A DNA stretch of 64,000 nucleotides from Rhodococcus rhodochrous (GTDB lineage Bacteria > Actinomycetota > Actinomycetes > Mycobacteriales > Mycobacteriaceae). The translations under genes and the position numbers were made by a program. The DNA is taken from assembly GCF_900187265.1 (NCBI RefSeq), contig NZ_LT906450.1:2409444-2473443 (forward strand), given 5' to 3'. Of this stretch, positions 36,145 through 63,139 are shown one piece after another; the stretch's first letter is position 1, and every line of letters begins with the position of its first letter. The notes beneath the pieces are model-generated. The model was not told the origin of the DNA, searched no databases, and saw only the letters and a list, made by a program, of their open reading frames with translations.

Positions 36145-36166
36145 ATTGCTATGGTGTGCATCACAC
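36145..36166 (+). promoter_or_regulatory. Promoter/operator of the catabolic operon at 36.2 kb
   Basis: An AT-rich island, unlike its surroundings, holds ATTGCTATGGT (36145-36155) with TATGGT as a -10 candidate. Overlapping it is a perfect palindrome GTGTG-CAT-CACAC (36154-36166). The 11-base box ATTGCTAT(A/G)GT recurs at 53301-53311 before the CaiB gene, with a related palindrome nearby. It lies about 100 bases before the acyl-CoA synthetase start. The rest of 35997-36262 shows no gene. Confidence 0.5.
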
Positions 36167-36262
36167 GGTCTCGCGACCGAGGGTTCGGTGCCCGGTGATC
36201 GCGAGCGCCGGTCGATTCGTCTCTTCTCTCGTACGGCAAGGCTTCTGAAGACAGGTGGTCAT

Positions 36263-37756
36263 ATGGGTATCGGGATGGTCCTCGACATGGCGTCCGCCGC
36301 CACCCCCGATCGGATCGCGATGGGTCCTCGCGCGAACGGCGTCACCTACCGCCGGCTCGACGAACTCGCTTCGCGCGGTGCGGGATTGCTCGGTGAGCTC
36401 GGAGCCCGACACGTCGTCTTCGTCGGAGTGAACGGTCCAGTCCTTCCCACGCTCATGTTCGCTGCCGGTCGTGCCGGTGTTCCACTGGCGCCCTTGAACT
36501 ACCGGCTTCCGGCCGCGCAACTGCTCGAACTGATCGACAGGCTGGACGAACCGATCGTCGTTGCGGATGCCGACTTTGTCGGCAAGCTCGACGGGTGCGC
36601 GCACCGAATCGTCTCGACCGACGAATTCCTCGGTCTCGCGGAGGGTACGGACCTTCTGGAGGGCGACCGATCGGACGACGAGGGAACCGCGATCGTGCTG
36701 TTCACCTCCGGGACCACCTCGGCTCCGAAAGGAGTGCTGCTCCGGCACCGGCACCTGCTGTCCTACCTCATCAACACCGTCGAATTCGGCTCCGCAGCAG
36801 AGGAACAGGCCACTCTGGTCAGCACGCCGCCCTATCACATCGCAGGTCTCGGTGCCGTCCTGAGCAACGTCTACTCGGGTCGCCGCATGGTGTACCTGCC
36901 CGACTTCACGCCGCAGGGTTGGCTCGATCTCGTCCGCACCGAGGGCGTCACCAGCGCGATGGTGGTGCCCACGATGCTCGCTCGCATCGTCGACCACCTC
37001 GACGGTGCGCCGGCCGAGGTTCCGACTCTCGAGTCGCTCGCCTACGGAGGGGCGAGGATGCCCCAGCCGGTCCTCGAACGTGCTCTCGCGGCGTTCGGTG
37101 ACACCGGATTCGTCAACGCCTACGGCCTGACGGAGACCAGTTCGACGATCGCGGTGCTCGGACCCGAAGAGCATCGGGAGGCCTTCGCGAAACCCGAACT
37201 GCGAGGGCGTCTCTCCTCGACCGGGCGGATCGTGCCCGGCATCGAAGCGCAGATCCGATCCGAGGACGGCGAACGCGTGCTGTCCGACGGGCAGACGGGT
37301 CTGCTGTGGGTGCGCGGGGCCCAGGTCAGCGGCGAGTACATGGGCAACGGTTCGGTTCTGGACGCGGAGGGTTGGTTCCCGACCAGGGATCGCGCCCGGA
37401 TCGAGGACGGCTATCTCTACATCGGTGGCCGCGCGGACGACACGATCATCCGAGGTGGGGAGAACATCGCACCGGCCGAGATCGAGGACGTGCTGGCGCA
37501 CCACCCGCAGGTGCGCGAGGTGGCCGTGATCGGTACTCCCGACGACGAATGGGGCGAACGGATCTGCGCGGTGATCGTGCCGGCCGTCGACAACCACGAC
37601 GACGCCGATTCGATCCGCACGTGGTGCCGTGAACGTCTGCGCGGTTCGAGGACCCCCGACGACGTCGTGTTCGTCGACGACCTGCCCCGTACCCCCACCG
37701 GCAAGCTCGTGCGCCGCGATCTCGTCGAGCAGGTCACGGCCGGACTCGCGGGATGA
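36263..37756 (+). CDS. Acyl-CoA synthetase (AMP-binding, class I adenylate-forming)
   Basis: This is a 497-residue CoA ligase that should activate the carboxylic acid entering this catabolic locus. Motifs are the P-loop IVLFTSGTTSAPKGVLLRH, AYGLTETSST, GWFPTRDRARIEDGYLYIGGRADDTIIRGGENIAPAEIE and the catalytic lysine in RTPTGKLVRRDL. It is first in a plus-strand run reaching 49.2 kb. The ATG at 36263 is in the conserved place; translation open upstream lacks similarity. Substrate class (aromatic, cyclic or branched) cannot be told. Confidence 0.93.
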   Translation: MGIGMVLDMASAATPDRIAMGPRANGVTYRRLDELASRGAGLLGELGARHVVFVGVNGPVLPTLMFAAGRAGVPLAPLNYRLPAAQLLELIDRLDEPIVVADADFVGKLDGCAHRIVSTDEFLGLAEGTDLLEGDRSDDEGTAIVLFTSGTTSAPKGVLLRHRHLLSYLINTVEFGSAAEEQATLVSTPPYHIAGLGAVLSNVYSGRRMVYLPDFTPQGWLDLVRTEGVTSAMVVPTMLARIVDHLDGAPAEVPTLESLAYGGARMPQPVLERALAAFGDTGFVNAYGLTETSSTIAVLGPEEHREAFAKPELRGRLSSTGRIVPGIEAQIRSEDGERVLSDGQTGLLWVRGAQVSGEYMGNGSVLDAEGWFPTRDRARIEDGYLYIGGRADDTIIRGGENIAPAEIEDVLAHHPQVREVAVIGTPDDEWGERICAVIVPAVDNHDDADSIRTWCRERLRGSRTPDDVVFVDDLPRTPTGKLVRRDLVEQVTAGLAG

Positions 37757-37796
37757 TCGCGCTGCCGTCCGCATCACGAAGAGAACGGGCATCCTT

Positions 37797-38840
37797 GTGA
37801 CCGACACCGTGGACACCGAACTCGTCCGACGCGAATGGATCCTCCGGGCGCGCCCGAGCGGCCGTCCCCGTGACACCGACGTCGAGTTGGTCGGAACCGC
37901 TCTCGGCGTACCCGCCCCGGGGCAGGTCCGCGTGCGGAACCTCGTCATGTCCGTCGAGCCGTACATGCGGGGCAGGATGGGCGGTGAGGCGACCTACGCG
38001 GAGCCCTATGCACTGGGGGAGCCGATGCTGGCTCCGACGGTCGGGGTCGTGTCCTGGTCCGATCGACCCGAGTTGCCGATCGGATCGCTGGTTCTCCACG
38101 AGTACGGCTGGCGGACGGAAAGTTTCGTCGACCCGTCCGACTGCCGCAGGCTCCGGCACGACGATCTCCCCGCAGCCCTGCACCTGAGTGTCCTCGGCAT
38201 CCCGGGTATGACCGCCTGGGTGGGAATCGAGCGGATCGCGCAGGTGCGCAGCGGCGACGTGGTGTTCGTGTCGTCCGCGGCCGGTGCGGTCGGATCCACT
38301 GCGGTCCAGCTGGCGAAACAGCGTGGTGCCGTGGTGATCGCGAGCGCCGGATCTCCTGAGAAGGTCTCTCTTGTCAGGGAACTCGGTGCCGACGCGGCGT
38401 TCGATCATCACGAGGGGCCGGCGAAGGACCTGCTGCGCAGCGCTATGGCCGAGGTCGGTGCCACCGCGCTCGACGTGTATTTCGACAATGTCGGGGGCGA
38501 ACAGCTCGAAGCGGCCATCCGCGTGCTCGCCGACCACGCCCGAATCGCTCTGTGCGGGATGATCAGCGTCTACAACTCCGCGACACCCGTGCCCGGACCG
38601 AACAACCTGCTCAAACTGATCTGGCGTCGCGCCCGGATGGAAGGCTTCCTGCTGGCCGACCATCTCGATGCGCGCGATGCCTTCGAGGACGAGATGGCCG
38701 CGCTCGTCCGGAGCGGCCGGATCCGGCCCGTCCACACCGAGTTCGCCGGTGGTATCGGCGGTGCATGGGATGCCTTCGTCGGGATGCTCGACGGCGCCGC
38801 AACCGGTAAGGCCCTCGTCCCTCTCGTTCCCTCGACCTGA
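37797..38840 (+). CDS. MDR-family NADP-dependent oxidoreductase
   Basis: This is a 347-residue zinc-free medium-chain reductase of the LTB4 dehydrogenase/CurA type. It has VRNLVMSVEPYMRGRM near the N-terminus, the NADP site VFVSSAAGAVGSTAVQLAKQRGA, VYFDNVGGEQLEAAI, and C-terminal GMLDGAATGKALVPL. Such enzymes reduce the C=C bond of enones or 2-alkenals. The start is GTG at 37797, 40 bp after the synthetase. A role in saturating an enone intermediate is inferred. Confidence 0.87.
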   Translation: MTDTVDTELVRREWILRARPSGRPRDTDVELVGTALGVPAPGQVRVRNLVMSVEPYMRGRMGGEATYAEPYALGEPMLAPTVGVVSWSDRPELPIGSLVLHEYGWRTESFVDPSDCRRLRHDDLPAALHLSVLGIPGMTAWVGIERIAQVRSGDVVFVSSAAGAVGSTAVQLAKQRGAVVIASAGSPEKVSLVRELGADAAFDHHEGPAKDLLRSAMAEVGATALDVYFDNVGGEQLEAAIRVLADHARIALCGMISVYNSATPVPGPNNLLKLIWRRARMEGFLLADHLDARDAFEDEMAALVRSGRIRPVHTEFAGGIGGAWDAFVGMLDGAATGKALVPLVPST

Positions 38841-38944: not shown

Positions 38945-39709
38945 ATGACCACGCATCCCCGTCCGCTCGAAGGAAAGGTAGCGCTCGTCACCGGTGGCAG
39001 CCGCGGCCTGGGCCGCGAGATGGTTCTCGCCTTTGCGAACGCCGGTGCCGACGTCGTCATCGTCAGCCGCAAGGTCGACAGCTGCGAGAAACTCGCCGCG
39101 GAGGTCGCCGAGACCACCGGGCGCAAGGCCCTGCCTCTCGCACTGCACGTCGGTGACTGGGACGCCCACGAGCCGGTCGTCGACCGGGTCTACGACGAGT
39201 TCGGCCACCTGGACGTCCTGGTGAACAACGCCGGCATGGCGCCTCTGTACCCCAGCCTCGACCAGGTGACCGAGGAACTGTTCGACAAGGTGATCGGTGT
39301 CAATCTCAAGGGTGCCTTCCGTCTGACCGCCCTCGTCGGTCCCCGGATGGCGGCGGGTTCCGGGGGGTCGATCATCAACATCAGCTCCATCGCCTCCCAG
39401 CGGCCGATGACCACCGATCTTCCGTACGCGGCGGCCAAGGCGGGACTGAACACCCTGACCAAGGGCTTCGCGCAGGCATACGGTCCCAGCGTGCGGGTCA
39501 ACACGATCATGGCCGGTGCCTTCCTCACCGACATCAGCAAGGCCTGGGACATGGACTCGGCCAACGAACTGTTCGGGGCGATGCCGCTCCGGCGTGCCGG
39601 AAATCCGGACGAGATCGTCGGCGCCGCACTGTATCTCGCGGGGCCCGGTTCCACCTACACCACCGGTGCTGTGATCCCCGTCGACGGCGGCCGCACCTCC
39701 ACCCCCTGA
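38945..39709 (+). CDS. Short-chain dehydrogenase/reductase
   Basis: This is a 254-residue classical SDR. The cofactor motif is TGGSRGLG, followed by NNAGMAP, Ser in NISSIAS and the catalytic YAAAK; the C-terminus is VIPVDGGRTSTP. Basic residues after beta-2 (SRKVDS) suggest NADP. The first of six SDRs in this locus, it probably oxidises or reduces a hydroxyl/keto group of the substrate. It starts 104 bp after the MDR gene, with ACAGGAGCCCGC upstream. Confidence 0.9.
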   Translation: MTTHPRPLEGKVALVTGGSRGLGREMVLAFANAGADVVIVSRKVDSCEKLAAEVAETTGRKALPLALHVGDWDAHEPVVDRVYDEFGHLDVLVNNAGMAPLYPSLDQVTEELFDKVIGVNLKGAFRLTALVGPRMAAGSGGSIINISSIASQRPMTTDLPYAAAKAGLNTLTKGFAQAYGPSVRVNTIMAGAFLTDISKAWDMDSANELFGAMPLRRAGNPDEIVGAALYLAGPGSTYTTGAVIPVDGGRTSTP

Positions 39710-39749: not shown

Positions 39750-40844
39750 ATGGACTTCATCCGAGCACCGCGCCGTACCCGGCGCACCTTCCTGTCGACC
39801 CTGACCGCCGCCGCGCTCGCCGCGACCCTCGCGGCCTGCGGTGGAAACGGTGGGGACGACCGCATCACCTCGGAATCGATCGGATCGACCGGCCCGGCCG
39901 GCGACGATGCCTGGCAGCAGGTGGTCGAGGCGGCCAAGGCGGAGGGCGAGGTCACGATCTACTCGTCGAACGCCGCGGACGCTCTCGCCGAACTGGGCCG
40001 CCGCTTCGAGGCCGACTACGGCATCCGCCTGAACGTCGTGCGTGACGTCGATGCGAATCTGCACCAGAAGATCGGTGCGGAGGCCGAGACCGGCAACCGG
40101 GTCGCCGACGTGGTCACGCAGGCGAGTGTGCCGTGGGCCGTGAGCCTCGGCGCGGAGGGGGAGTTCGCCGAGCCCGTCGGCCCGGCCTTCACCGACTCTG
40201 CCAGTGAGTACGACGTCACGACCCTGAAGGACGACACGGGTTACTTCGTCTCCAATGCGTCCGTCCTGACCTTCGGCTGGAACACCCAGCGCTACCCGGA
40301 CGGCGTCGACAGCTACGGCGATCTCCTGGATCCGGCGCTCGGCGACGGCAGGATCGGCATCGTCCTTCCCACGTCGACCGCGCACGTGGATTTCTACGAC
40401 AACTATCTCGAGCAGGTCGGAGGGGAGGGCTATCTCGAGAAGCTGGCGCAGCAGCGTCCGCGGATCTACCCCAGCGCGCTGCCGTTGGCGCAGGCCCTCG
40501 CCTCCGGTGAGATCGCCGCCGCCGCCTTCGTGCAGGACCAGAAGAGCGAGCAGGAGACCGGCGCCCCCGTCGACTCGGCCTTCGGAGACGTCGTGTGGGG
40601 CGCGCCCATGTACACCGCGATCCTCGCCGATGCCGTTCATCCCAATGCAGCCCAGGTCCTGGCCAACTACATGATCACCCCGGCGGGTCAGGAAGCGGTC
40701 TCGTTCCGCAATGCCTCCGTTCTGCCCGGCATCGGCTCGGCGGTCACCACCGTCGACAAGGTCGCCCCTCAGAACACGGACGCCATGACGCCGGAAGCAC
40801 TCGAAGAACTCAAGGCCCGCTTCGGCCGTCTGTTCAACCAGTAG
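39750..40844 (+). CDS. ABC importer substrate-binding lipoprotein (orphan copy)
   Basis: This is a 364-residue extracellular solute-binding protein of family 1/6 (Fe3+/putrescine-like fold). The N-terminus has RRTRRTFLSTL (Tat-like) and lipobox LAAC-GGNG. The mature part includes AWQQVVEAAKAEGEVTIYSSN, TFGWNTQRYPDG, SGEIAAAAFVQDQKSEQETGAPV and HPNAAQVLANYMITPAGQEA. It is clearly paralogous to the protein at 57524-58585. I see no Tyr-Tyr iron pair, so iron is unlikely. The nearest permease and ATPase genes are 20 kb away. Confidence 0.88.
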   Translation: MDFIRAPRRTRRTFLSTLTAAALAATLAACGGNGGDDRITSESIGSTGPAGDDAWQQVVEAAKAEGEVTIYSSNAADALAELGRRFEADYGIRLNVVRDVDANLHQKIGAEAETGNRVADVVTQASVPWAVSLGAEGEFAEPVGPAFTDSASEYDVTTLKDDTGYFVSNASVLTFGWNTQRYPDGVDSYGDLLDPALGDGRIGIVLPTSTAHVDFYDNYLEQVGGEGYLEKLAQQRPRIYPSALPLAQALASGEIAAAAFVQDQKSEQETGAPVDSAFGDVVWGAPMYTAILADAVHPNAAQVLANYMITPAGQEAVSFRNASVLPGIGSAVTTVDKVAPQNTDAMTPEALEELKARFGRLFNQ

Positions 40845-40875: not shown

Positions 40876-41703
40876 ATGGGAAGAGTTGAAGGAAAGGTCG
40901 CACTGATCACCGGCGCGGCCCGTGGCCAAGGACGCGCGCACGCCGTGCGTCTCGCCGAGGAAGGGGCGGACGTCGTCCTCCTCGACGTGTGCAGGTCGAT
41001 CGACTCGGTGCCGTACCCGCTTGCCACCGGGGACGACCTCAAGGAGACCGAGGCGCTCGTCGCCGCGACCGGCCGCCGGGTCCTGTCCCGCATCGCCGAC
41101 GTCCGGGACCAGGCACAACTCGACGCTGCGGTCGCGGATGCGATCGGAACGTTCGGGCACATCGACATCGTCTGTGCCAACGCGGGCATCGTGGGCTTCC
41201 GGCCCACCTGGGAGTTGAGCGACGCAGAGTGGCAGGACATGCTCGACGTCAACCTCACCGGGGTGTTCCACACCGTCCGAGCCGTCGTCCCGGAGATGAT
41301 CCGCGCCGGCCGCGGTGGATCGATCGTCATGACCAGCTCGATCCAGGCGATGCTCGGCTCGGCCAACATCGGTCACTACAACGCGTCGAAGAGCGGTGTC
41401 GTCGGCCTCATGCGGACTCTGGCCACCGAACTCGGCCCCCACGGCATCCGCGTCAACACGGTCAATCCGAGCGCCGTGGAAACCCCGATGCTGCACAACG
41501 AGGCGACCTTCCGGATCTTCGGGCCCGATCTCGAGAATCCGGGACCGGACGACCTGTGGGAGCGCTCGAAGGACCGCAATCCGATGGGCATCGGCTGGGT
41601 GGCGCCCGAGGACATGAGCAACGCCGTGTTGTTCCTCGCCTCGGACGAAGCACGATTCATCACCGGCGTGGCGCTGCCGGTCGACGCGGGGGTGCGACTG
41701 TGA
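40876..41703 (+). CDS. Mycofactocin-coupled SDR family oxidoreductase
   Basis: This is a 275-residue SDR with the insertion that marks mycofactocin-coupled enzymes (carveol dehydrogenase type): after TGAARGQGRAHAVRLAEEGADVVLLDV come CRSIDSVPYPLATGDDLKET and ALVAATGRRVLSRIADVRD. The catalytic motif is YNASK. These enzymes hold NAD tightly and pass electrons to the peptide-derived cofactor mycofactocin, oxidising secondary alcohols. It starts 31 bp after the binding protein, and its stop overlaps the next gene. Confidence 0.9.
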   Translation: MGRVEGKVALITGAARGQGRAHAVRLAEEGADVVLLDVCRSIDSVPYPLATGDDLKETEALVAATGRRVLSRIADVRDQAQLDAAVADAIGTFGHIDIVCANAGIVGFRPTWELSDAEWQDMLDVNLTGVFHTVRAVVPEMIRAGRGGSIVMTSSIQAMLGSANIGHYNASKSGVVGLMRTLATELGPHGIRVNTVNPSAVETPMLHNEATFRIFGPDLENPGPDDLWERSKDRNPMGIGWVAPEDMSNAVLFLASDEARFITGVALPVDAGVRL

Positions 41704-42515
41704 CCGCTCTGGACAACGAAACCCGGCCCGAGACCGCCCGGGTGCCGCGCAGACTCGAAGGTCGCCGGATCTTCGTGACCGGCGGTGGAAGCGGCATCGG
41801 TGAGGCCGTGGCGAAGCGACTCGCCGCCGAGGGTGCAGCGGTCGCGGTGACCGACGCCCGGGGCGAGGCCGCGGAGACCGTGTCCGCCTCGGTCGCGGAG
41901 ACCGGCGCACCGACGCTGGGGCTGCGGTGCGACGTCGGCGACGAGACCTCGGTCGCGGACGCCGTGGCTGCCGCGGCCGACGAGTTCGGAGGCCTCGACG
42001 GCGTGGTGACCTGTGCGGGCATCAACGGGACGGCGATGCTCCACGAGATGGAACTCGCCCATTGGGAACGCATCCTGCGCGTAAACCTCACCGGCACCTT
42101 CCTGCCGTTGCGGGCCACCCTGCCCCACCTTCTCCAGGCCGGCGGGGGCTCGATCGTGACCGTCGGCTCGGTCGCGTCGCTGGTGGCGACCAACCTGAAC
42201 ACCCCCGGTTACGACGCGTCCAAGGGCGGTGTCCTGCAGCTGACCCGGTCGGTTGCCATGGGGTACGCCGACCGGAACATCCGGGCGAACTGCCTGTGCC
42301 CCGGCCTGGTGCGAACGGGCCTGCGCGTGAACTCGCAGGCGTTGCAGGGCCCCGAGCCCGAGGCGACCCGCAGCCGCGTGGTGGAGAACACCGCGCTCGG
42401 ACGCTCGGCGGACCCGGCAGAGATGGCATCGGTGGTGGCCTTCCTGCTGTCCGACGACGCCTCCTTCGTGACCGGCGCGGCGATCGCCGCCGACGGCGGA
42501 CTGACCGCGAACTGA
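41700..42515 (+). CDS. Short-chain dehydrogenase/reductase
   Basis: This is a 271-residue classical SDR: TGGGSGIGEAVAKRL, VTDARG (acidic residue after beta-2, favouring NAD), CAGING, Ser in TVGSVAS and catalytic YDASK; the C-terminus is AIAADGGLTAN. The GTG at 41700 overlaps the stop of the mycofactocin SDR (GTGA), so the two are translated together and may act in sequence on one substrate. Confidence 0.9.
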   Translation: MTALDNETRPETARVPRRLEGRRIFVTGGGSGIGEAVAKRLAAEGAAVAVTDARGEAAETVSASVAETGAPTLGLRCDVGDETSVADAVAAAADEFGGLDGVVTCAGINGTAMLHEMELAHWERILRVNLTGTFLPLRATLPHLLQAGGGSIVTVGSVASLVATNLNTPGYDASKGGVLQLTRSVAMGYADRNIRANCLCPGLVRTGLRVNSQALQGPEPEATRSRVVENTALGRSADPAEMASVVAFLLSDDASFVTGAAIAADGGLTAN

Positions 42516-42559: not shown

Positions 42560-43747
42560 ATGTCCACCGACCCGACCTGGCGCAGGGATGCCTGCGCCAT
42601 TGCAGGAATCGGAACCACCGCGTTCTCCAAGGACTCCGGTGTCTCCGTGACAGCGCTCGCCGTCGAGGCCGCCGCGGCGGCCCTCGAGGACGCCGGACTG
42701 ACCCCGGCCGACGTCGACGGCGTCGTCCGCAACGATATGGATCTCGTCTCGTGCGCGGCGCTCGCCGACGGCCTCGGCGTCCCGCACCTGACCTACTGGG
42801 GTGAAGCCGGCCCGGGTGGATCGGGACCGGCCGCGATGGTCGCCCAGGCCGTCGCCGCCATCATGAGCGGACAGGCGACCACCGTCGTCGTGTTCCGTTC
42901 GCTCAACGGCCGATCGGGCCGTCGGTTCGGCCTGTCTCCGGTCGTCACCCCCGAGGTGGGCGGCAACGAGACCTTCGAGGAGTTCTTCGGCCCGTACGGG
43001 CTGCTGTCGTCCGGCCAGTACTTCGCGCTCATGGCTCAGCGCTACATGACCGAAACCGGCCTGACCTCCGAACAACTCGCGCAGATCGCGCTGGTGACCC
43101 GCAAGCGCGCCAATGCGAATCCGGCCGCCCAGATGTACGACCGGACGATGACGCTCGACGACTACTTCGATTCGCGCATGCTGTCGTCGCCCCTGCGACT
43201 GTTCGACTACTGTCTCGAAACCGACGGTGCCGCAGCGGTCGTCGTCACCACCGCCGAACGCGCCAACGACCTGCGGCAGACGCCGGCACTCATCCGGTCG
43301 GTCGCGATGTCGACCTGCCGTCACCCCCAGCCGGGCCTGATGTACCCGACTCTCATGCGTGAGGACATCACCGCCCTGCCGTCGCGGGAATGCCAGGACA
43401 CGCTCTACAGCCGTGCCGGTCTCGGTCCCGCGGACGTCGACGTCGCGCAGATCTACGACTGCTACTCGATCACGGCCCTCATCCAGCTCGAGGACTACGG
43501 GTTCTGCAAGCGCGGCGACACCGGCGACTTCCTCGCCGAGGGTCAGATCGACCTCGGTGGAGCGATACCGATCAACACCAGCGGAGGACACATGTCCGAG
43601 GGATACATCCACGGAATGAACCACGTCGTCGAAGGGGTGCGGCAGATCCGCGGTACCTCCACGAGTCAGGTCGAGGGTGCGCAGGTCTCCCTGGTCACCT
43701 CGGCCCCGCCCCCGGCGGCGTCCGCGCTGATCCTGGTGGCGGCATGA
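42560..43747 (+). CDS. Thiolase-fold lipid-transfer protein lacking the nucleophilic Cys (Ltp2-like)
   Basis: This is a 395-residue thiolase-superfamily protein. Where thiolases have the nucleophilic Cys, it reads WGEAGPGGSG with Ala83, so it cannot be a normal thiolase. The C-terminal motif is NTSGGHMSEGYIHGMNH rather than the GHP thiolase motif. This agrees with Ltp2-type retro-aldolases of steroid side-chain breakdown, which work with a DUF35 partner. A DUF35 gene overlaps its stop. I infer C-C cleavage of a beta-hydroxyacyl-CoA thioester. The ATG at 42560 follows GAGGTGACC. Confidence 0.88.
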   Translation: MSTDPTWRRDACAIAGIGTTAFSKDSGVSVTALAVEAAAAALEDAGLTPADVDGVVRNDMDLVSCAALADGLGVPHLTYWGEAGPGGSGPAAMVAQAVAAIMSGQATTVVVFRSLNGRSGRRFGLSPVVTPEVGGNETFEEFFGPYGLLSSGQYFALMAQRYMTETGLTSEQLAQIALVTRKRANANPAAQMYDRTMTLDDYFDSRMLSSPLRLFDYCLETDGAAAVVVTTAERANDLRQTPALIRSVAMSTCRHPQPGLMYPTLMREDITALPSRECQDTLYSRAGLGPADVDVAQIYDCYSITALIQLEDYGFCKRGDTGDFLAEGQIDLGGAIPINTSGGHMSEGYIHGMNHVVEGVRQIRGTSTSQVEGAQVSLVTSAPPPAASALILVAA

Positions 43748-53277: not shown

Positions 53278-53311
53278 TTGTGATGTACAACGCACAAAAC
53301 ATTGCTATAGT
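53278..53311 (+). promoter_or_regulatory. Promoter/operator upstream of the CaiB-CoA-transferase operon
   Basis: An AT-rich stretch contains TTGT-GATGT-ACAA (53278-53290), overlapping TTGTG(N10)CACAA, and ATTGCTATAGT (53301-53311) with TATAGT as a -10 candidate. The ATTGCTAT(A/G)GT box repeats that at 36145. The palindrome resembles, on the opposite strand, GTGTGCATCACAC at 36154 (10 of 13 bases). A common regulator is possible. Confidence 0.5.
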
Positions 53312-53442
53312 TACGGTGTTTTCAGCTCGCGTTCGAGCTTCCGCCGAATCCCCCGACCCGCATCTCACGGAGTCGCTCGGCGCTCACTTCCCATGCTGTG
53401 CGCGGCCTCTCGTGGCCGTGAGACGACGAAGGAGAACACTCG

Positions 53443-54773: not shown

Positions 54774-55943
54774 GTGTACGACCTTCGCGATATCAAGATC
54801 ATCGATACCGACACCCATGTCGTCGAACCGCCGGACCTGTGGACGTCCCGGATGTCGAAGAAGTGGGGCGATCTCGTTCCCCACGTGCGGTGGGACGAAC
54901 AGCGTGGCGACGAGGCGTGGTTCGTCTCCGGTACCCGCATGAGCGCCGTCGGTGCGCCCGCGATGGCCGGCTGGCACGAGTACCCGCCGAGCTGCCCGCC
55001 GCGCTTCGCCGACACCGATCCGCGTTCGTGGGATCCCGCCAAGCGTCTGGCGCTGATGGACGATTACGGCATCCACGCACAGATCCTGTACCCGAACGTC
55101 GCGGTCTTCAGTCAGAAGACGCTGCAGTCCAACGGATCCAACGATCTGCAGCTCGAGTGTGTCCGTGCCTACAACGACTACCTCACCGAGTGGGCCCAGT
55201 TCGCACCCGGCCGCTACGTCCCGGTGGGCATCCTGCCCTTCTGGGACATGGAGGCGACCATCGCCGAGGTCGAGCGGGTCGCGGCTGCCGGGCACAAGGG
55301 CCTGGTGTTCACGCAGAACCCGGCCGCATTCGGATTGCCGGTACTGACCGACCCGTACTGGGACCGGCTGTGGGCGTCCGCGCAGGAGAAGAAGCTGCCG
55401 ATCAACTTCCACATCGCCTCCGGCGAGGTCGATCTGAGCGGCTTCGGGCACGAGAGCAACGGTGTGGCGGCCAACTACGGCATGATGGGCATCTCGTTCT
55501 TCATGGACAACGCCCGCACGATCTCGCAGCTCATCTTCGGCGGCATCTGCGACCGGTTCCCCGAATTGAAGTTCGTCTCCGTGGAGTCGGGCATCGGCTG
55601 GATGCCGTTCGCGCTCGAGGGCATGGACTGGCAGTGGCGGAACAGCGGCGTGCACAAGGAGCACCCGAACTACGAGCTTCTGCCCAGCGAGTACTTCAAG
55701 CGGCAGATCTACGGCTGCTTCTGGTTCGAGCAGGATTCGGCGCGCAGCGCGATCGAGCAGCTCGGTGCCGACAACGTGCTCTACGAGACGGACTACCCGC
55801 ACCCGACCTCGATGTCCCCGGGGCCGGCGAGCGATGCCGTGCGGCCGGACGACTACCTGCGTCGCAACTTCGCGCATCTCTCCGAGGCGGACGCGCGAAA
55901 GATCCTGCACGACAACGCTGCGGCGCTCTACAACCTGGACTGA
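54774..55943 (+). CDS. Amidohydrolase-family metal enzyme (PF04909 type)
   Basis: This is a 389-residue TIM-barrel metal hydrolase/decarboxylase. Metal-site motifs are DTDTHVVEP at the N-terminus, INFHIASGE in the middle, VSVESGIGWMP and YETDYPHPTS near the end. AGGAGGAG lies 8 bases before the GTG at 54774. Members include decarboxylases and ring-opening C-C hydrolases, and they are frequent in actinobacterial catabolic clusters. A hydrolytic or decarboxylating step on a CoA intermediate is plausible but unproven. Confidence 0.88.
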   Translation: MYDLRDIKIIDTDTHVVEPPDLWTSRMSKKWGDLVPHVRWDEQRGDEAWFVSGTRMSAVGAPAMAGWHEYPPSCPPRFADTDPRSWDPAKRLALMDDYGIHAQILYPNVAVFSQKTLQSNGSNDLQLECVRAYNDYLTEWAQFAPGRYVPVGILPFWDMEATIAEVERVAAAGHKGLVFTQNPAAFGLPVLTDPYWDRLWASAQEKKLPINFHIASGEVDLSGFGHESNGVAANYGMMGISFFMDNARTISQLIFGGICDRFPELKFVSVESGIGWMPFALEGMDWQWRNSGVHKEHPNYELLPSEYFKRQIYGCFWFEQDSARSAIEQLGADNVLYETDYPHPTSMSPGPASDAVRPDDYLRRNFAHLSEADARKILHDNAAALYNLD

Positions 55944-56187
55944 CGTCCTCGAGTCCCAGGTGCCGGCCCGTGCCCTCCAGGGGCGGGCCGGCACCGGCGG
56001 TTCGCAGCCGGTTCCCGGTCCTCGGCGGGGTGACACGCATCTCTCGCATCACTGGACTGTGACTTAAATCTCCGTTAATATGCGTATGTTCCTAATGGAT
56101 GCCGAGCGGGTAGCTTCTGCCACCGGCCGCGGACCGACCAACAGCCCGATCGCCCCACACGGGACGATCTCAGCCAGTGGAGTATTC

Positions 56188-57441
56188 ATGTCCCTCTCGG
56201 AATTCGAGACCCGCGCCCGCACCTGGGTGACCGACACCCTGGCCCGACTGGCGTTCACCGTCCGCGACGACGAGTACGACGTCTCGGTCTTCCACGATCT
56301 CCCCGAAGACGAGGAGCGGGCGCTCCTCGACCGCCACCGCACCTGGCAGCGCGAGAAGTTCGACGCCGGCTACGGTGCGCTCGGATGGCCGATCGAATAC
56401 GGCGGCACGGAGACCGGAACCGAGGTTGCGGAAGCCTTCGCGCGCATCGAGAACGAACTGTGCCCGCTCCCGCCGCACGAGCTCGTCTCGGTCACCCTGC
56501 ACCTCATCGCCCCCACCATCAGGCTCCTCGGTACCGACGAACAGAAGCAGCAGTTCCTGCCGAAGATGCTTCGTGGTGAACTTCTTGCGTGCCAACTGTT
56601 CTCCGAGCCCGACGCCGGCTCCGACCTCGCGAATCTCGGAACACGCGCGGTGCGGGACGGCGACGACTGGATCGTCTCGGGGCAGAAGGTCTGGACGTCG
56701 GGCGCGCAGTTCGCCGAATGGGGCGAACTCATCGCCCGCACCGATCCCGACCAGCCCAAGCACCAGGGCATGACCGCCTTCCTGATTCCTCTCGACGCTC
56801 CCGGTGTCGAGATCCGCCCGATCCGGCAGATGTCCGGGGGCAGCAGCTTCAACGAGGTCTTCCTCGACCGGGTCCGCATCCCCGACAGCCTCCGTCTCGG
56901 GGAGGTGGGCAAGGGGTGGTCCGTCGCCCTGACCACACTTGCCTTCGAACGCGAAGGCGGGTCCAACACCGCCAATGTCGGCGGGCAGTTCGATCAGCTC
57001 GTGGCCACGGCCCGGCGCCTCGGGCGCGACGAGGACCCGCGTGTGCGTGAGCAACTGGCCCGGGTGTACCTGCGCCAGCAACTCGCCGCGGTGGACCTGC
57101 TGCGGGACCGCCAGGCTCGCGACGGCGGAGCGGCGCCCTCGGCGATCGGATCCGTCCGCAAGATCCAATGGGTCGACAAGCTCGCCGCGGTCTCCGCTGC
57201 GGCACGAACCGTGCTGGGGCGTAACCTCATCGCGGACACCGGCATTCCCGGTACCTACGAATGGAATGCGCACGTTCTCGGCGCCCCCGGTTACAGCATC
57301 GCCGGCGGGTCGGATCAGATCCAGCGCAACATCGTCGCGGAACGACTTCTCGGGCTCCCCGCGGAGGCTCGTGCGGACCGTGGCCTGACCTGGCGCGAAG
57401 CGCGTAATCGCGTCCACGGTCGGGTCGTCTCCGGAAGCTGA
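56188..57441 (+). CDS. Acyl-CoA dehydrogenase
   Basis: This is a 417-residue acyl-CoA dehydrogenase of the actinobacterial FadE17/FadE-like class. It has LFSEPDAGSDLANLGTRAVRDGDDWIVSGQKVWTSGAQFAEWGELIARTDP, MSGGSSFNEVFLDRVRIPDSLRLGEVGKGWSVALTTLAFER and IAGGSDQIQRNIVAERLLGLP. Such proteins often act as alpha2beta2 heterotetramers with a second subunit; the gene at 59016 may be that partner, as in steroid catabolism. The ATG at 56188 has AGTGGAG upstream. Confidence 0.92.
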   Translation: MSLSEFETRARTWVTDTLARLAFTVRDDEYDVSVFHDLPEDEERALLDRHRTWQREKFDAGYGALGWPIEYGGTETGTEVAEAFARIENELCPLPPHELVSVTLHLIAPTIRLLGTDEQKQQFLPKMLRGELLACQLFSEPDAGSDLANLGTRAVRDGDDWIVSGQKVWTSGAQFAEWGELIARTDPDQPKHQGMTAFLIPLDAPGVEIRPIRQMSGGSSFNEVFLDRVRIPDSLRLGEVGKGWSVALTTLAFEREGGSNTANVGGQFDQLVATARRLGRDEDPRVREQLARVYLRQQLAAVDLLRDRQARDGGAAPSAIGSVRKIQWVDKLAAVSAAARTVLGRNLIADTGIPGTYEWNAHVLGAPGYSIAGGSDQIQRNIVAERLLGLPAEARADRGLTWREARNRVHGRVVSGS

Positions 57442-57523: not shown

Positions 57524-58585
57524 ATGAGATTTCCGTCGCTTCGTCGCTCGATTGCCGGAATCGGCATCGCCGCAGTGACGTTCGCTGCTGCTGCGTGCGG
57601 GTCCGGTACCACGGAGGTGTCCGCGGAGGATCTCGGTCCGGCCGGCGACAGCGCCTGGGAGGAGCTGGTCGAGGCCGCGAAGCAGGAAGGCTCGGTCACC
57701 TATTTCACCGGGCAACCGACGGACAACCTCCAGGAAGTCGCGGCCCGATTCGAGTCGGTGTACGGCATCGGGGTGGAGATCGTCCGCGACAACGACGCCA
57801 ACCTCCAGACCAAGCTGGCGGCGGAGGCGGAAACCGGTCGCCACACGGCCGATGTCATCGCCACCGCTTCCCAGCCCTGGGTGGACACACGGCTGACCGA
57901 GGACTACTTCGTCCCGGTCACCGGCCCCGCCTTCGACGCCTCCGAGTTCGACCGCGAGAAGTTCCTGCGGGACGACGACCGGATCTTCCTCTCGTCGGCT
58001 GCGGTGCTCACCTACGGCTGGAACACCGGCCGGGTCCCGGACGGCATCGACGGATACGAGGACCTGCTCGATCCCTCCCTCGCGGACGGGAAGATCGGTG
58101 TGATGCTTCCGGTGTCCTCGGCCATCGTGGACTTCTACGACTTCCTGGGAGACACGGTCTCACCCGACTACGTCGAGAAGCTCGCCGGGCAGAAGCCCCG
58201 CACCTACCCGGGCGCCCAGGCGATGGCCCAGGCACTGACCTCCGGTGAGATCGCCGCGGCCCTCTACACCATGCCGCTCACCGCGGAGAAGGAAGCCGGT
58301 GCTCCGGTCGACTCCGGTCTGCCCTCGCCGGTCTTCGGTGCCCCCTTCCTCACAGGGGTCCCGGCGACCGCACCGCACCCCAACGCCGCACAGTTGTTCG
58401 CAAACTTCCTGGTGACCAAGGCCGGCCAGGAGGCCGTCGCCGACCGCGCCGGCTCCGTGCTGCCCGACATCTCCACGGCGGCGACATCCGCGGACGACAT
58501 CTGGGTCAACAGCCGGATCGTCACCGCCGACGACACCGAGGCCTTCCGCGCCGAGTTCGCCCAGCTGTTCGGCTCCAGCCAGTAG
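57524..58585 (+). CDS. ABC importer substrate-binding lipoprotein (transporter-linked copy)
   Basis: This is a 353-residue solute-binding lipoprotein: signal with lipobox AAAC-GSGT, then AWEELVEAAKQEGSVTYFTGQPTDNLQEVAARFESVYGIGVEIVRDNDANLQTK, LTYGWNTGRVPDG and HPNAAQLFANFLVTKAGQEA. It is paralogous with the protein at 39750-40844 along its full length. It is 1.6 kb upstream of the ATPase and permease genes. It lacks an obvious Tyr-Tyr iron site, so an organic anion from the local pathway is a more likely ligand than iron. Confidence 0.9.
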   Translation: MRFPSLRRSIAGIGIAAVTFAAAACGSGTTEVSAEDLGPAGDSAWEELVEAAKQEGSVTYFTGQPTDNLQEVAARFESVYGIGVEIVRDNDANLQTKLAAEAETGRHTADVIATASQPWVDTRLTEDYFVPVTGPAFDASEFDREKFLRDDDRIFLSSAAVLTYGWNTGRVPDGIDGYEDLLDPSLADGKIGVMLPVSSAIVDFYDFLGDTVSPDYVEKLAGQKPRTYPGAQAMAQALTSGEIAAALYTMPLTAEKEAGAPVDSGLPSPVFGAPFLTGVPATAPHPNAAQLFANFLVTKAGQEAVADRAGSVLPDISTAATSADDIWVNSRIVTADDTEAFRAEFAQLFGSSQ

Positions 58586-59015: not shown

Positions 59016-60203
59016 ATGATTCTCTCGAGCGCGACCGGCGCGGAGGATACGGCGCTCCTCGTCGACACCGTCCGAGCCGCCGTCGGCCGGGCCGACCCGG
59101 CCGACGGGCGGACCGATCGGGTCTACCGCGACGGTGCCCTCGACCGCGAACTGTGGTCCGTGCTCGGCCGCGAGATCGGAATCGGCGCTCTCGCCGTCCC
59201 CGAGAACCTCGGCGGTCTCGGCACCTCTTTCGCAACCGTGGCAGCCGTTCTCGAAACCCTCGGTGCGGAACTGACCCGGGTCCCCGTCCTCGGCGGTGTC
59301 GTCGCCGCCGCGGCTCTCACCCGCTGCACCGAGCACCCCCTCGCCGGGGACCTCCTCGAAGGGATCGCCTCGGGCGCACGAATCGTCGCCACGGTGGTCC
59401 CCGGGGACGAGTGCGACGCTCACTCCACCGAGAGCGCCTTCCGCGCGGTCGAGGGAGGATCAGGCGTGACCCTCACGGGCCGAGCCGATTTCGTGCTCGA
59501 CGGAACTGTGGCGGATACGCTTCTGATCCATGCCGTCGATCGGTACGGAGCCCTGGGTCTCTACGCAGTCGACCGCGTCCATCTGACGGTCGAACCGATG
59601 GAGGCCACCGACGCCACCCGAGACCTGGCCCGTGTCCACGCCGAGAACGCCCCGGCCACCCTGCTCACCGACCGGCCCGAACCGGGCCGCGTACGCGATC
59701 GGGCTCTCGTCGCGCTGGCCTGCGACAGTCTCGGCGTCGCCCGGGCGTGCCTCGACGCCGCGGTGGCCTACGCGAAGGAACGTGTGCAGTTCGGCCGCCT
59801 CATCGGCGAGTTCCAGGCCGTGAAGCACATGCTCGCCGAGGTGGCCGTGGCCGTGGAACTGGCCGACTCCGCTGTGGCACACGCGGTGTGGGCAGTCGAG
59901 GAGGGCACCGACGACGAGCTCGCCGAGGCAGCGGCCATCGCGGCGATCGCGTGCGGAGACGCAGCCGGCCTTGCCACGGCGACGAATGTCCAGGTGCACG
60001 GAGGCATCGGTTTCACCTGGGAACACACCGCCCATTTGTACTACCGCCGGGCCCTGAGCTCGAGCGTGCTGTGGGGCACCGCCGACGAACACGCACAGCG
60101 GCTGTATCGGCTCGCGACCGGCCGCGCAGACCGGGACGGCGGCACCCCGTCCCCTGAACCCGTCCGCGAACCGGCACCCGCCCTGTTCGCCACCGAGCAC
60201 TGA
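59016..60203 (+). CDS. Acyl-CoA dehydrogenase (divergent, FadE partner type)
   Basis: This is a 395-residue acyl-CoA dehydrogenase homologue. It has IGIGALAVPENLGGLGTSFATVAAVLETLG, a degenerate central beta domain (LTGRADFVLDGTVADTLLIHAVD) and a better conserved C-terminal domain (AYAKERVQFGRLIGEFQAVKHMLAEVAV, QVHGGIGFTWEHTAHLYYRRALSSS). The missing CMSEPxxGSD-type FAD motif suggests the structural partner of a heteromeric FadE pair with the protein at 56188. It is followed 28 bp later by the transporter ATPase. Confidence 0.88.
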   Translation: MILSSATGAEDTALLVDTVRAAVGRADPADGRTDRVYRDGALDRELWSVLGREIGIGALAVPENLGGLGTSFATVAAVLETLGAELTRVPVLGGVVAAAALTRCTEHPLAGDLLEGIASGARIVATVVPGDECDAHSTESAFRAVEGGSGVTLTGRADFVLDGTVADTLLIHAVDRYGALGLYAVDRVHLTVEPMEATDATRDLARVHAENAPATLLTDRPEPGRVRDRALVALACDSLGVARACLDAAVAYAKERVQFGRLIGEFQAVKHMLAEVAVAVELADSAVAHAVWAVEEGTDDELAEAAAIAAIACGDAAGLATATNVQVHGGIGFTWEHTAHLYYRRALSSSVLWGTADEHAQRLYRLATGRADRDGGTPSPEPVREPAPALFATEH

Positions 60204-60231: not shown

Positions 60232-61398
60232 ATGTCCCATGTCTCGATACGCCAGCTGCTGAAGAACTTCGACGGCAAGCCCCCGACGGTGGCCGTGGAT
60301 CATCTCGACCTCGAGATCGAGGACGGCGAATTCCTGGTACTGCTGGGCCCGTCCGGGTGCGGTAAGACGACGACGCTTCGATGCCTGGCCGGCCTCGAAC
60401 AGCCTGCGAGCGGCTCCATCACCCTCGGCGACGAGGTGGTCTTCGACGGTGCCCGCCGTGTGAACCTGCCGCCCGACAAGCGCTTCATCGGCATGGTCTT
60501 CCAGTCCTACGCGCTGTGGCCGCACATGACCGTCCGCAAGAACATCGCCTACCCGCTCAAGTCCCGCAAGCTCACCGACGCGCTCGCCGACGGCCGGGTC
60601 GAGGAGACCGCGGCACTGGTGGACTGCGAACGTCTGCTCGACCGGCTCCCGGCGGAACTGTCCGGTGGGCAGCAGCAGCGCGTCGCTCTGGCACGCGGCC
60701 TGGTCTCCCACCCCGATCTCGTCCTGTTCGACGAGCCGCTCAGCAACCTCGATGCGCGCCTGCGCGATCAGGTCCGGGCGGAACTGCACGACCTGCACCA
60801 GCGCAAGCCGTTCACGGCGGTGTTCGTGACGCACGACCAGAGCGAAGCCCTCGCGCTGGGCACCCGCATGGCCATCATGCGCGCCGGCCGGATCGTCCAG
60901 ATCGGGCCGCCGCGCGAGGTCTTCGAGGAGCCGGTCGACGAGTACGTCGCAGGCTTCACCGGTATGTCGAACCGGGTGCCCTGCGAGTACGTCGACGGAC
61001 GCTGGTACGCGCTGGGCACCGAGATCCACGGCATGCAGCCGCGGGCGGAGGCTTCGGTGGGTTCGTTCGTCCTGCGCCTGCGACCGGAGAAGGTCCGGCT
61101 GGTGACCGACGTCGCGGACCTGCTGCCCGGTGAAGCCGGGATGGCCGTGCACATCGACGATGTCGAGTACGGTGGCCTGCACTTCGACGTCATGTGCTCG
61201 GTGGTGGGCGACGGATCGGTGCGCCGCCAGCTGCATGCCCGCATCCAGACATTCGACACGGCGCGCATGCCGCGCACGGTGAATCGCGGCGCGACGATGA
61301 TCTTCGCGTTCGATCCGCTCGACGCGCGCACCTTCGACACCGACGGCACGGCACTGGCAATGCCCCGACAGGCGCTGACCGGCGCTCTGGTGGGGTGA
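60232..61398 (+). CDS. ABC importer ATPase (PotA/FbpC type)
   Basis: This is a 388-residue ATPase with Walker A GPSGCGKTTTL, Q-loop VFQSYALWPHMTV, signature LSGGQQQR, Walker B LVLFDEPLSNLDARL and H-loop VFVTHDQSEALAL. A C-terminal TOBE/MOI-like domain of ~130 residues (SNRVPCEYVDG to the end) is typical of spermidine, iron or sugar importers. The permease gene starts 7 bp after its stop. Confidence 0.94.
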   Translation: MSHVSIRQLLKNFDGKPPTVAVDHLDLEIEDGEFLVLLGPSGCGKTTTLRCLAGLEQPASGSITLGDEVVFDGARRVNLPPDKRFIGMVFQSYALWPHMTVRKNIAYPLKSRKLTDALADGRVEETAALVDCERLLDRLPAELSGGQQQRVALARGLVSHPDLVLFDEPLSNLDARLRDQVRAELHDLHQRKPFTAVFVTHDQSEALALGTRMAIMRAGRIVQIGPPREVFEEPVDEYVAGFTGMSNRVPCEYVDGRWYALGTEIHGMQPRAEASVGSFVLRLRPEKVRLVTDVADLLPGEAGMAVHIDDVEYGGLHFDVMCSVVGDGSVRRQLHARIQTFDTARMPRTVNRGATMIFAFDPLDARTFDTDGTALAMPRQALTGALVG

Positions 61399-61405
61399 GG
61401 CGGAC

Positions 61406-63139
61406 ATGGCTGTCATGACGTTGCCGACCGCCGAGGTCGGTGAAGCCCCTCCGAGCGTCCCCCGCGGGCCCGGGAACGACGCGGTGCGGGTCGTCGCGCG
61501 CCGCCTCGGCGTCGTCGCCTTCGTGGCGCTGCTCTGCTACCTGGTCGTGCTTCCGGTGGTGCGATTGCAGGCGACGGCCTTCGAGGACGGAGCCGCCGGC
61601 TACGACCGTGCCTTCGGTCTGCCCCGTATCGGTCAAATACTCTGGAACACGGTCGGTCTGGCGTTCGGGTCGTTGGTGATCGCGATGGTTCTCGGTACGG
61701 CACTGGCGTGGGCGGCGAACCGGCTTCCCCGACGCCTGGCGGTGTTGCAGATCCTGCCGATCCTGCCGATCGTGATTCCGGCCGTCGCCGCGATCGTCGG
61801 CTGGGCGTTCCTGCTCTCACCCCGTCCCGGCTACCTCAACGCGATGCTGCGGAACCTGCCGTGGTGGTCGCATCTCGAAGAGGGCCCGATCGACATCTAC
61901 TCGATCCAGTGGATCGTGATCATCACCGGGTTCTCGCTGAGTTCGTTCGTGTACATGTTCGTCCGCTCGGGTTTCGAGAACATCAACTCGGAGATGATCG
62001 AGGCCGCCCAGGTCTCCGGGATGCCGGAATGGAAGGTGTTCTTCAAGATCACCCTGCCCTTGTTGCGTCCCACGCTCATCTACGGCGCGGGCGTCGCGCT
62101 CCTGCTCGGGCTCGGGCAGTTCACCGGCCCGCTGTTGCTGGGCACGAACACCGGGGTCAGCGTGCTGACCACGGAGATGTACTTCCAGATCAGCGACTCG
62201 CCGGCGCAGTTCGCCACCGCCGCGGCCCTCGGCTCGCCGCTGCTGATCGTGGGGATCGTGGTGGTCTTCGCGCAGAAGGCGATGCTGGGCAATCAGCGTC
62301 GCTTCGTCACCCACGGCGGCAAGGCGTTCCGTTCCCAGGGGCGCCCGTCGAAGACCGGTGTGGCGATCATCCTGCTCTTCTCGCTGCTGTCGACGGTACT
62401 GCCGCTGCTGGCACTGGTGTTCGTGGCCCTGTCGCGTTACTGGAGTGGCACCGTCAACTTCTCCGCGCTGACCTTCGAGAACTTCCGGACGATCTTCTCC
62501 GGCACGGCGGTGCCCGCTGCGGTGGGCAACAGCGTGATGTTCTCCCTGATCGCGATGGCGATCGTCCTGCCGCTCGGCTTCGTCGCCGCGAACCTCATCG
62601 TGCGTGGCACGAAGTACCCGGTGCTGCGAGTGGTCACCGACGTGCTCGTGTCCATGCCGTTGGGAGTGCCGGCGGTCATCTTCGGTGCCGCCTTCCTGCT
62701 GACCTACACGCAGGGGCCGATCGTCCTCTACGGCACGTCGTGGGTGGTGATCCTGGTGTACGTGACGCTGATGCTGCCGTTCGCGACCCGCATGCAGCTG
62801 TCCTCGATGCTCGCCCTCGGCGAGACCTACCTCGAGGCGTCCCGGGTGAGCGGTGCCGGTTTCGTGGCCACCAACGTGAAGATCCTGTTGCCGCTCATGC
62901 GCGGCAGCCTCGGCGGGACCGCGGCCCTGTTGTTCGTCCTGCTCACCCACGAGTTCACTGCGTCGCTGCTGGTGCGGGCCTCGCAGACGCAGGTGATGGG
63001 CACCATCCTGTTCGAGTACTGGTCCAACGGCGGTTACCCGCTCGTCGCCGCCGTCGCCCTGGTCATGACCGGGGTCACCGCGGTCGGTGTCGCCGCGGCG
63101 ATGCTGGTGGGCGGAACCGACGCGCTCAGCAAGATGTGA
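61406..63139 (+). CDS. ABC importer permease, fused double-domain (FbpB type)
   Basis: This is a 577-residue permease with two homologous six-helix halves in one chain. The first half has EAA-loop EMIEAAQVSGMPEWKVFFKITLPLLRPTLIYG, the second YLEASRVSGAGFVATNVKILLPLMRGSLGG. Fused permeases are the rule in FbpB/ThiP-type importers. With the ATPase and the lipoprotein at 57524 it makes a complete importer; the second lipoprotein at 39750 may use it too. A terminator follows. Confidence 0.93.
   Translation: MAVMTLPTAEVGEAPPSVPRGPGNDAVRVVARRLGVVAFVALLCYLVVLPVVRLQATAFEDGAAGYDRAFGLPRIGQILWNTVGLAFGSLVIAMVLGTALAWAANRLPRRLAVLQILPILPIVIPAVAAIVGWAFLLSPRPGYLNAMLRNLPWWSHLEEGPIDIYSIQWIVIITGFSLSSFVYMFVRSGFENINSEMIEAAQVSGMPEWKVFFKITLPLLRPTLIYGAGVALLLGLGQFTGPLLLGTNTGVSVLTTEMYFQISDSPAQFATAAALGSPLLIVGIVVVFAQKAMLGNQRRFVTHGGKAFRSQGRPSKTGVAIILLFSLLSTVLPLLALVFVALSRYWSGTVNFSALTFENFRTIFSGTAVPAAVGNSVMFSLIAMAIVLPLGFVAANLIVRGTKYPVLRVVTDVLVSMPLGVPAVIFGAAFLLTYTQGPIVLYGTSWVVILVYVTLMLPFATRMQLSSMLALGETYLEASRVSGAGFVATNVKILLPLMRGSLGGTAALLFVLLTHEFTASLLVRASQTQVMGTILFEYWSNGGYPLVAAVALVMTGVTAVGVAAAMLVGGTDALSKM

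Follow-up and report, generated by a model that had tools for sequence, protein, structure and literature searches.

A 28.1-kb accessory gene block of Rhodococcus rhodochrous as a probable modular core for the breakdown of a gamma-oxygenated, branched or alicyclic acid

The 64,000-nucleotide stretch analysed here (the window; positions 2,409,444 to 2,473,443 of contig NZ_LT906450.1), from the closed 5.27-Mb genome of Rhodococcus rhodochrous, contains most of a 28.1-kb block of genes for CoA-dependent metabolism, among which an ATP-binding cassette (ABC) importer is encoded. From the predicted enzymes, the block appears to be a modular catabolic core that acts on an acid of gamma-oxygenated, branched or alicyclic (terpenoid-like) structure, a reading to which we assign a probability of roughly 0.64. 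In the proposed mechanism, a carboxylic acid would enter through the ABC system and be turned by a ligase into its CoA thioester, with a CoA-transferase recycling CoA onto a later acid, and alcohol, ketone and enone groups would be adjusted by a mycofactocin-coupled short-chain dehydrogenase/reductase (SDR), other SDRs, an LLM oxidoreductase and a medium-chain dehydrogenase/reductase (MDR). An APH-fold kinase would phosphorylate a 4-hydroxyacyl-CoA and an acyl-CoA dehydrogenase (ACAD), ACAD1, would eliminate the phosphate to give the 2-enoyl-CoA, as ACAD11 and LvaA/LvaC do, with dehydrogenation by ACAD2 and ACAD3. The thiolase-fold protein Thl1 with its partner DUF35a would carry out retro-aldol cleavage of a 3-hydroxyacyl-CoA with a blocked beta-carbon to an acyl-CoA and a carbonyl compound, and Thl2/DUF35b might catalyse a second carbon-carbon or thioester step. 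An earlier reading of the letters alone (the sequence-only reading) had proposed an alicyclic, branched or already oxidised acid, with terpenoid acids and levulinate among its candidates; this class is plausible, and within it a gamma-oxygenated, branched or alicyclic acid is, on the predicted chemistry, the most likely substrate.

The best mechanistic clue is a gene that the sequence-only reading overlooked. It encodes the APH-fold kinase (47136..48254, on the + strand, as are all features below unless marked; PF01636), overlaps the ACAD1 gene (45850..47139) by four bases, and has a product which, like ACAD1, counts ACAD11 among its best PDB relatives, so that the two are classed as ACAD11-kinase/LvaA-like and, from PDB relatives and active-site residues, ACAD11/LvaC-like. 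For ACAD11, the available text of PMC12440821 gives the dehydrogenase residues R626, R631, H634 and R637 (R626, H634 and R637 recognising phosphate) with D753 as the catalytic Asp, and the kinase residues D220, N225, R86 and R176. Equivalents of all five dehydrogenase residues are present in ACAD1 and were kept in 21/21 homologs of at least 58% identity, some of which are located outside the core clusters described below. All four kinase residues likewise have equivalents, kept in each of 21 rows (E<=1e-30, 60% coverage), a limit under which the Dietzia-type kinases (27–28%) fall, outside this count. Among other rows of the ACAD1 alignment, two at 34% keep all of the residues and three at 28–29% are other ACADs. 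The pair points to a predicted conversion of 4-hydroxyacyl-CoA through 4-phosphoacyl-CoA to 2-enoyl-CoA. It shares all tested active-site residues, the expected chemistry and adjacent overlapping genes with ACAD10/ACAD11 and Pseudomonas putida LvaA/LvaC (PMC12440821, PMC11342911, in the text available); the latter paper reports that ACAD10 and ACAD11 share this chemistry and that bacterial homologs can stand in for ACAD10 domains. In contrast to ACAD10/ACAD11, the block encodes two separate chains, as in lva, and unlike both systems it places the pair among an aldolase, a second thiolase-fold pair, a CoA-transferase and an ABC importer.

The residues common to ACAD11 and LvaA/LvaC-type enzymes would also suit a levulinate-like route that starts from a 4-oxo or 4-hydroxy acid with a small straight chain; the ligase and SDRs of the block would be at hand for it, and the other genes would be peripheral. 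However, the Sal/Ltp2-type aldolase, the second thiolase-fold pair, the two further ACADs and the CoA-transferases are kept in most of seven core loci found elsewhere (see below), and the levulinate pathway is not known to need any of them; we regard a route of this kind as very unlikely.

Carbon-carbon cleavage in the proposed catabolic core would fall to Thl1 (42560..43747), a Sal/Ltp2-type aldolase by resemblance, whose nearest solved relative is Ltp2 (6ok1), and to DUF35a (43744..44226; PF01796, PF12172). The residues named in the available text of PMC12329534 are Y302 and C304, within the motif YDCY, for Sal, and Tyr294 and Tyr344 for Ltp2. Thl1 has YDCY, which fits the YD[HC][FY] pattern around the catalytic Tyr of these retro-aldolases, and the Tyr344 equivalent, without a nucleophilic Cys; the base Tyr, the Cys of YDC[YF] and the Tyr344 equivalent were found in 20/20 homologs of at least 58%, the last Y being F in some, and two distant rows (30–33%) read YDGF, the remaining rows of that list being Thl2. 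A Cys4 zinc ribbon (Cx2Cx10Cx2C), by which a Sal/Ltp2 partner is recognised, was read in the translations of both DUF35a and DUF35b (44223..44654; PF01796, PF12172). On these motifs, Thl1/DUF35a carries the signature of a predicted Sal/Ltp2-type retro-aldolase, and it shares the fold, the base Tyr, the YDCY motif and a neighbouring DUF35 gene with the Ltp2-ChsH2(DUF35) and Sal-Shy(DUF35) systems (PMC12329534, in the text available). It differs from both in that the block has no hydratase gene and in that Thl1 combines the Sal-type Cys with the Ltp2-type Tyr344.

The same likeness could mark a steroid or bile-acid side-chain module, in which a steroid-like side chain would be shortened by Thl1 and the ACADs, with a steroid acid or a ring fragment entering through the importer: Thl1 is nearest Ltp2 and shares YDCY with Sal, a bile-acid aldolase, and IpdE2 is the top NCBIfam match of ACAD3 (59016..60203, start approximate; IpdE2/PimD-like). 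Nevertheless, ACAD3 scored 185.3 bits with NF050027 against a cut-off of 450 and so is not filed as IpdE2, and neither a MaoC hydratase partner (Shy, ChsH1/H2) nor a ring-degrading gene was present among the scanned genes of the block. To our knowledge, the kinase/ACAD1 step also has no place in steroid pathways, which counts against such a module, and we consider it unlikely.

The second pair has an active site of a different kind. By motif alignment, Thl2 (44651..45793) keeps the nucleophilic Cys, with QDTE replacing HD and GEP (GEPIGATG) replacing GHP(xGA), so that both catalytic His are gone; this agreed in 23/23 homologs of at least 60% (one row at 29% was Thl1 and was dropped), and both His were present in 5/5 displayed PDB thiolase sequences, two of which are one protein. 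Because both catalytic His are missing, Thl2 was not filed as a thiolase. The pairing of a DUF35 protein with a thiolase-fold protein is common to the block and to the BbsAB thiolase, and the bbs operon likewise brings class III CoA-transferase, ACAD and SDR genes together, whereas BbsB has the histidines of HD and GHP and Thl2 does not. Thl2 and its 23 homologs make up a thiolase-fold subfamily in which the Cys is invariant and both catalytic histidines are replaced, again without variation, by Gln-Asp-Thr-Glu and Glu; it is represented in Rhodococcus, Dietzia and Nocardioides at least.

Proteins of the thiolase-fold/DUF35 kind and CoA enzymes can serve in synthesis as well, PhlABC being an example in the partial source available, and on that ground the locus could be biosynthetic or lipid-remodelling instead of catabolic. 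The importer, the GntR/FCD regulator (51502..52290, − strand; PF00392, PF07729), the retro-aldolase motif and the patchy accessory distribution would, however, fit catabolism, and we give a synthetic role hardly any weight.

The extent of the block was fixed from empty sites. Because the flanks are contiguous in two relatives (G002 and G015), in which the left flank runs to the equivalent of 36034 and the right flank resumes from 64156 with 86 and 65 bp between them, the block was placed at 36035-64155, which agrees with the 28-kb size given by the sequence-only reading and puts the right edge beyond the window. Gene models combined open reading frame lists with a codon-usage script and with alignments to relatives, the gene starts of the MDR, ACAD2, the solute-binding protein SBP2, ACAD3 and SDR6 being approximate. 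By its distribution the block is a discrete accessory, predicted catabolic unit that is present or absent as a whole within the genus: the permease, the amidohydrolase-fold protein AmdH and Thl1 were each present in the identical 8 of 18 Rhodococcus genomes (own included; E<=1e-100), in contrast to the adjacent SPFH gene, found in all 18. A permease search of 61 genomes (own and 60 relatives) returned orthologs of at least 88% identity in seven relatives of the same genus and a single match outside it (56%, G020). Gene order was co-linear in the seven, with the exceptions that the MFS gene had no match in G008 and that the contig of G007 starts at SDR1.

The block is not tied to a single site, since G006 and G016 show no SPFH or EamA match beside it; the G006 copy is part of an 809-kb contig, and SPFH is on a different one. 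No direct repeat of 10 or more bases linking the block edges was found, nor any tRNA in the window, and an 11-base inverted match at the edges (near 36057 and 64143) was put down to chance, 275 of about 2000 random stretch pairs equalling it. A lone permease-like stretch of 109 residues (80%; G013:C193:53914-54246) stands mid-contig in a Rhodococcus genome without the block and is perhaps a remnant.

Most of the genes fall into a ligase operon (36.2-49.2 kb) and a CoA-transferase/importer operon (53.4-63.1 kb), over which the importer is split. The solute-binding lipoprotein SBP1 (39750..40844; PF13531/PF13416, with Cys30 at the lipobox position invariant in the alignment) is encoded in the first, and SBP2 (about 57524..58585; a second such lipoprotein by Pfam and lipobox alignment), the ATPase (60232..61398; PF00005) and the fused permease (61406..63139; PF00528, two stretches) in the second. 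A promoter element, CACAAAN{1,2}ATTGNNATANTT, lies upstream of the ligase operon (36129..36147) and again upstream of the CoA-transferase operon (53293..53312), conserved at both places in the aligned upstream regions. The 5.27-Mb genome holds two matches to it, both of them these promoter sites 17 kb apart; the reversed sequence has no match, and neither do 100 shuffles of the window. Six of eight relatives have the exact element upstream of the CoA-transferase (it is missing in G016 and R. triatomae), and the relatives' fetched stretches hold no further match to the exact element beyond the two promoter positions. A perfect TTGTGATGTACAA inverted repeat at 53278 was considered as an operator and dropped, having 4 matches at up to 3 mismatches against 2.27 expected.

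Gene content was counted in seven core loci that are not of the window type and that have Thl1, ACAD1 and the kinase at 56% identity or more: the plasmids of R. opacus (L131) and Rhodococcus DMU1 (L132), G309, G370, Nocardioides zeae, a Georgenia contig (C33) and an Actinomycetes metagenome-assembled genome (C121). Partial loci in G181, G325, G249, Pseudofrankia contigs (including L067) and Georgenia C23 stand outside this count. All seven have Thl1/DUF35a, ACAD1, the kinase, the AMP-dependent acyl-CoA ligase (36263..37756 in the window; PF00501/PF13193), SDR1 (38945..39709; PF13561), ACAD2 (56080..57441, by Pfam/NCBIfam; 38–71% identity, some orthologs aligning from about residue 29 only) and a CoA-transferase pair, the block's own class III enzyme lying at 53443..54660 (PF02515). 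Thl2/DUF35b and ACAD3 were each found in six of the loci, the F420-dependent LLM oxidoreductase (48342..49235; TIGR03619, 215.5 bits, cut-off 166.9) in four, and the importer within the cluster in one. In Nocardioides zeae most of the gene set, importer included, is present in rearranged order, with no AmdH match; G181 has two AmdH homologs (60–64%), one of them beside Thl1. An observation apart concerns a protein of about 100 residues (L131:26869-27171) with no Pfam or NCBIfam family, whose gene directly precedes that of the ligase in several of the core clusters (45–57%) and for whose counterpart the window has no gene model.

Three of the seven core loci have a P450 of the R. opacus kind (the R. 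opacus enzyme and others at 62–81%), and two more have one of 26–28%; in G309 and on the plasmids of R. opacus and DMU1 the core is accompanied by both a P450 and a ferredoxin. The clusters of R. opacus plasmid pRop44186_a and the DMU1 plasmid share the core genes with the block at 39–81% identity, CoA-transferases and GntR excepted, but unlike the block they have a P450, a ferredoxin, a reductase and two CoA-transferases, and no importer, AmdH or MDR match within the 41 kb fetched. The R. opacus P450 matched nothing in the PDB at E<=1e-50, and NCBIfam gave it no name above the cut-off. Its best match in the R. rhodochrous genome reached 32%, which is no close relative, and among the 18 Rhodococcus genomes a relative was found in R. 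zopfii only (G009, 78%), which also carries a block of the window type. There, in G009:C16 (L174-L175, about 14.5-24.1 kb of the joined stretch), a remnant keeps the P450-type front end with ferredoxin, reductase, mycofactocin SDR and CoA-transferase pair, together with SDR1 in two pieces and fragments of Thl1 and ACAD3; this is consistent with the block core serving both front ends, or with plain decay. The estrogen aed cluster was considered for the P450-bearing relatives and for R. zopfii, which a title cited by PMC12507874 names as an estrogen degrader, and was set aside: by comparison of gene lists, the aed list in the available text of PMC12507874 names no kinase and no DUF35 protein.

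These relatives bear on the claim of the sequence-only reading that the pathway lacks oxygenases. Pfam scans of the block genes indeed returned no P450 or ring-hydroxylating oxygenase family, a negative that AmdH and the P450-bearing relatives qualify. AmdH (54774..55943; Amidohydro_2, PF04909) has DitZ and PtmU3 as its nearest solved relatives, and PtmU3 is reported to be a diiron hydroxylase accepting CoA-ligated substrates (PMC7782822, PMC10811679, in the text available); no report of DitZ's own activity was found in the literature searched. Like the amidohydrolase-fold group of PtmU3, DitZ and AibH2 (PMC7782822, PMC10811679), its closest known systems, AmdH can be compared with the dinuclear oxygenases, whose six first-shell metal ligands (DxH, H, E, D, H) it keeps. 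An acidic residue two positions after the last His is stated, in the available text of PMC7782822, to be conserved in binuclear enzymes only; in AmdH this residue is Thr, as in 10/10 distinct close homologs (11 rows, one duplicate), and it is Asp in 5/5 distant paralogs. The block, unlike those systems, also has no Rieske or ferredoxin gene. With one tested feature failing, AmdH may or may not be an oxygenase. Because the same core elsewhere has a P450 and ferredoxin, and with AmdH near DitZ and the hydroxylase PtmU3, "oxygenase-free" is a weak guide to the substrate and unsafe as a pointer.

Several observations weigh against a catabolic core of the kind proposed. The promoter pattern was derived post hoc from the same two sites that were later searched, so that its rarity shows specificity and not an independent prediction; upstream of the ligase the exact element is found in 3/7 relatives holding the region, with three further near-matches differing by a base or two, and in R. 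triatomae it has diverged at both sites. Dietzia-type ACAD1-like rows (37–40%) have Tyr for H634 in 12/12, and a second kinase/ACAD pair in G309 indicates that such pairs are not specific to the block. No enoyl-CoA hydratase gene was found in the block, and this activity would have to come from elsewhere. The core stands without an importer nearby in R. opacus, DMU1, G309 and G370. Conversely, in loci of the Dietzia type (Dietzia, R. yunnanensis, the BH4 plasmid L133, G333, G102 and G270) the importer accompanies a related but different core, made up of SDR1, a hydratase, Thl2/DUF35b, ACAD2 and genes resembling those of the kinase and ACAD1. Among 394 genomes drawn from across the class and searched at E<=1e-130, seven had Thl1 and five the permease, with both in two (own and G391). 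By homology, the core and the importer are each rare and patchily distributed, and beyond the genus they are mostly found apart.

The last count took slightly from the weight given to the catabolic core and added to that of an importer unrelated to its catabolic neighbours, which would import iron, a phosphonate or another nutrient. Core and importer seldom meeting in one genome outside the genus speaks for this, as do the NCBIfam leanings of its components, all below cut-offs: 2-aminoethylphosphonate-type systems are the nearest for the SBPs and the permease, and sugar and phosphonate types for the ATPase. Set against this, the SBP genes stand among SDR and ACAD genes, an arrangement kept in the seven relatives, and the promoter element is common to both operons. 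Moreover, 16 importer relatives at 55–64% were compared, from Nocardioides, Georgenia, Dietzia, Pimelobacter, Pseudofrankia and others: the fetched flank holds an ACAD or thiolase homolog of the block in 10 of them and only SDR, LLM, hydratase or hydrolase homologs in four, and the other two are short contigs that carry just the importer. We judge an unrelated importer to be decidedly unlikely. Iron in particular was considered and rejected: ferric-iron SBPs of the FbpA type have tandem Tyr iron ligands, and YY is missing in SBP1 and SBP2 (5/18 listed homologs have YY somewhere), which together with the catabolic gene context makes a ferric-iron importer unlikely. The sequence-only reading's picture of one CoA-dependent unit with its own importer stands within Rhodococcus, where whole presence or absence, co-linearity in seven relatives and the shared element support it, as does the rearranged set with its importer in N. 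zeae. Independent conservation of the sub-blocks, which that reading had named as what would speak against it, is seen in part, the modules separating outside the genus and forming one unit within it.

Taken further, the catabolic core might represent an undescribed actinobacterial route in which a split ACAD11-type kinase/dehydrogenase pair dehydrates a gamma-hydroxyacyl-CoA derived from a terpenoid or alicyclic acid. A Sal-type retro-aldolase and a thiolase-fold enzyme, the latter with an active site of a new kind (Cys, Gln-Asp-Thr-Glu, Glu), would then take off carbon, one core serving importer-fed and P450-fed versions; we hold this fuller proposal tentatively, at somewhat less than even odds. 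No published description of such a gene combination was found in the open-access full-text literature searched, as judged by titles and the openings of abstracts. Rhodococcus sp. P1Y yields dehydrovomifoliol and rhodococcal acid from abscisic acid (PMC7996341, PMC9599779), and the available text of PMC9599779 describes the enzymes of that conversion as still to be found. Abscisic-acid-like acids would fit successive retro-aldol steps and are a candidate class, with no gene evidence tying them to the block. The block provides a compact, accessory and testable gene set for a substrate not yet assigned, and places bacterial counterparts of ACAD11 chemistry within a predicted carbon-cleaving pathway. 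The swapping of P450 and importer front ends around one core also offers a handle on that substrate, as the product of the P450 should resemble the cargo of the importer.

For the remaining genes, Pfam and NCBIfam matches bore out most of the list drawn up in the sequence-only reading (ligase, MDR, two SBPs, two thiolase-fold/DUF35 pairs, three ACADs, F420/LLM enzyme, CoA-transferase, amidohydrolase, ATPase and permease), from which the kinase, the MFS transporter, the GntR/FCD regulator and the mycofactocin coupling of one SDR were absent. Its count of six SDRs needs adjusting: five lie within the span it covered (36145 to 63139), and the sixth, SDR6 (PF00106, 132.1 bits), starts near 63265 and runs off the window to 64074. 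Besides SDR1, the five comprise the mycofactocin-coupled SDR (40876..41703), SDR3 (41700..42515), SDR4 (49297..50016, − strand) and SDR5 (52399..53238), the last three matching PF13561. The mycofactocin-coupled SDR scored 397.5 bits with TIGR03971 (cut-off 300), and the genome has the mycofactocin maturase MftC (660.4 bits, cut-off 265), for which 0/14 control genomes rose above the cut-off. The MDR (37797..38840; PF16884, PF00107) is of the curcumin/LTB4 reductase type, at 261.6 bits with NF058644 and below the cut-off of 440, and the MFS transporter (50115..51371, − strand; PF07690) has no match in the blocks of G008 and R. triatomae.

Outside the block, a glycine riboswitch (RF00504; 35911-36000, − strand; 67.1 bits, gathering threshold 32) lies 34 bases before its left edge, upstream of an EamA-family transporter gene (34728-35768, − strand), which hints at a glycine-responsive transporter. 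Farther to the left are a gene for a protein with an MPAB/Lcp (rubber oxygenase family) catalytic domain (31210-32073, − strand), adjoining a TetR regulator, and genes for an MlaD-family protein and an MlaE permease (28295-31048, − strand), which look like part of an Mce operon.

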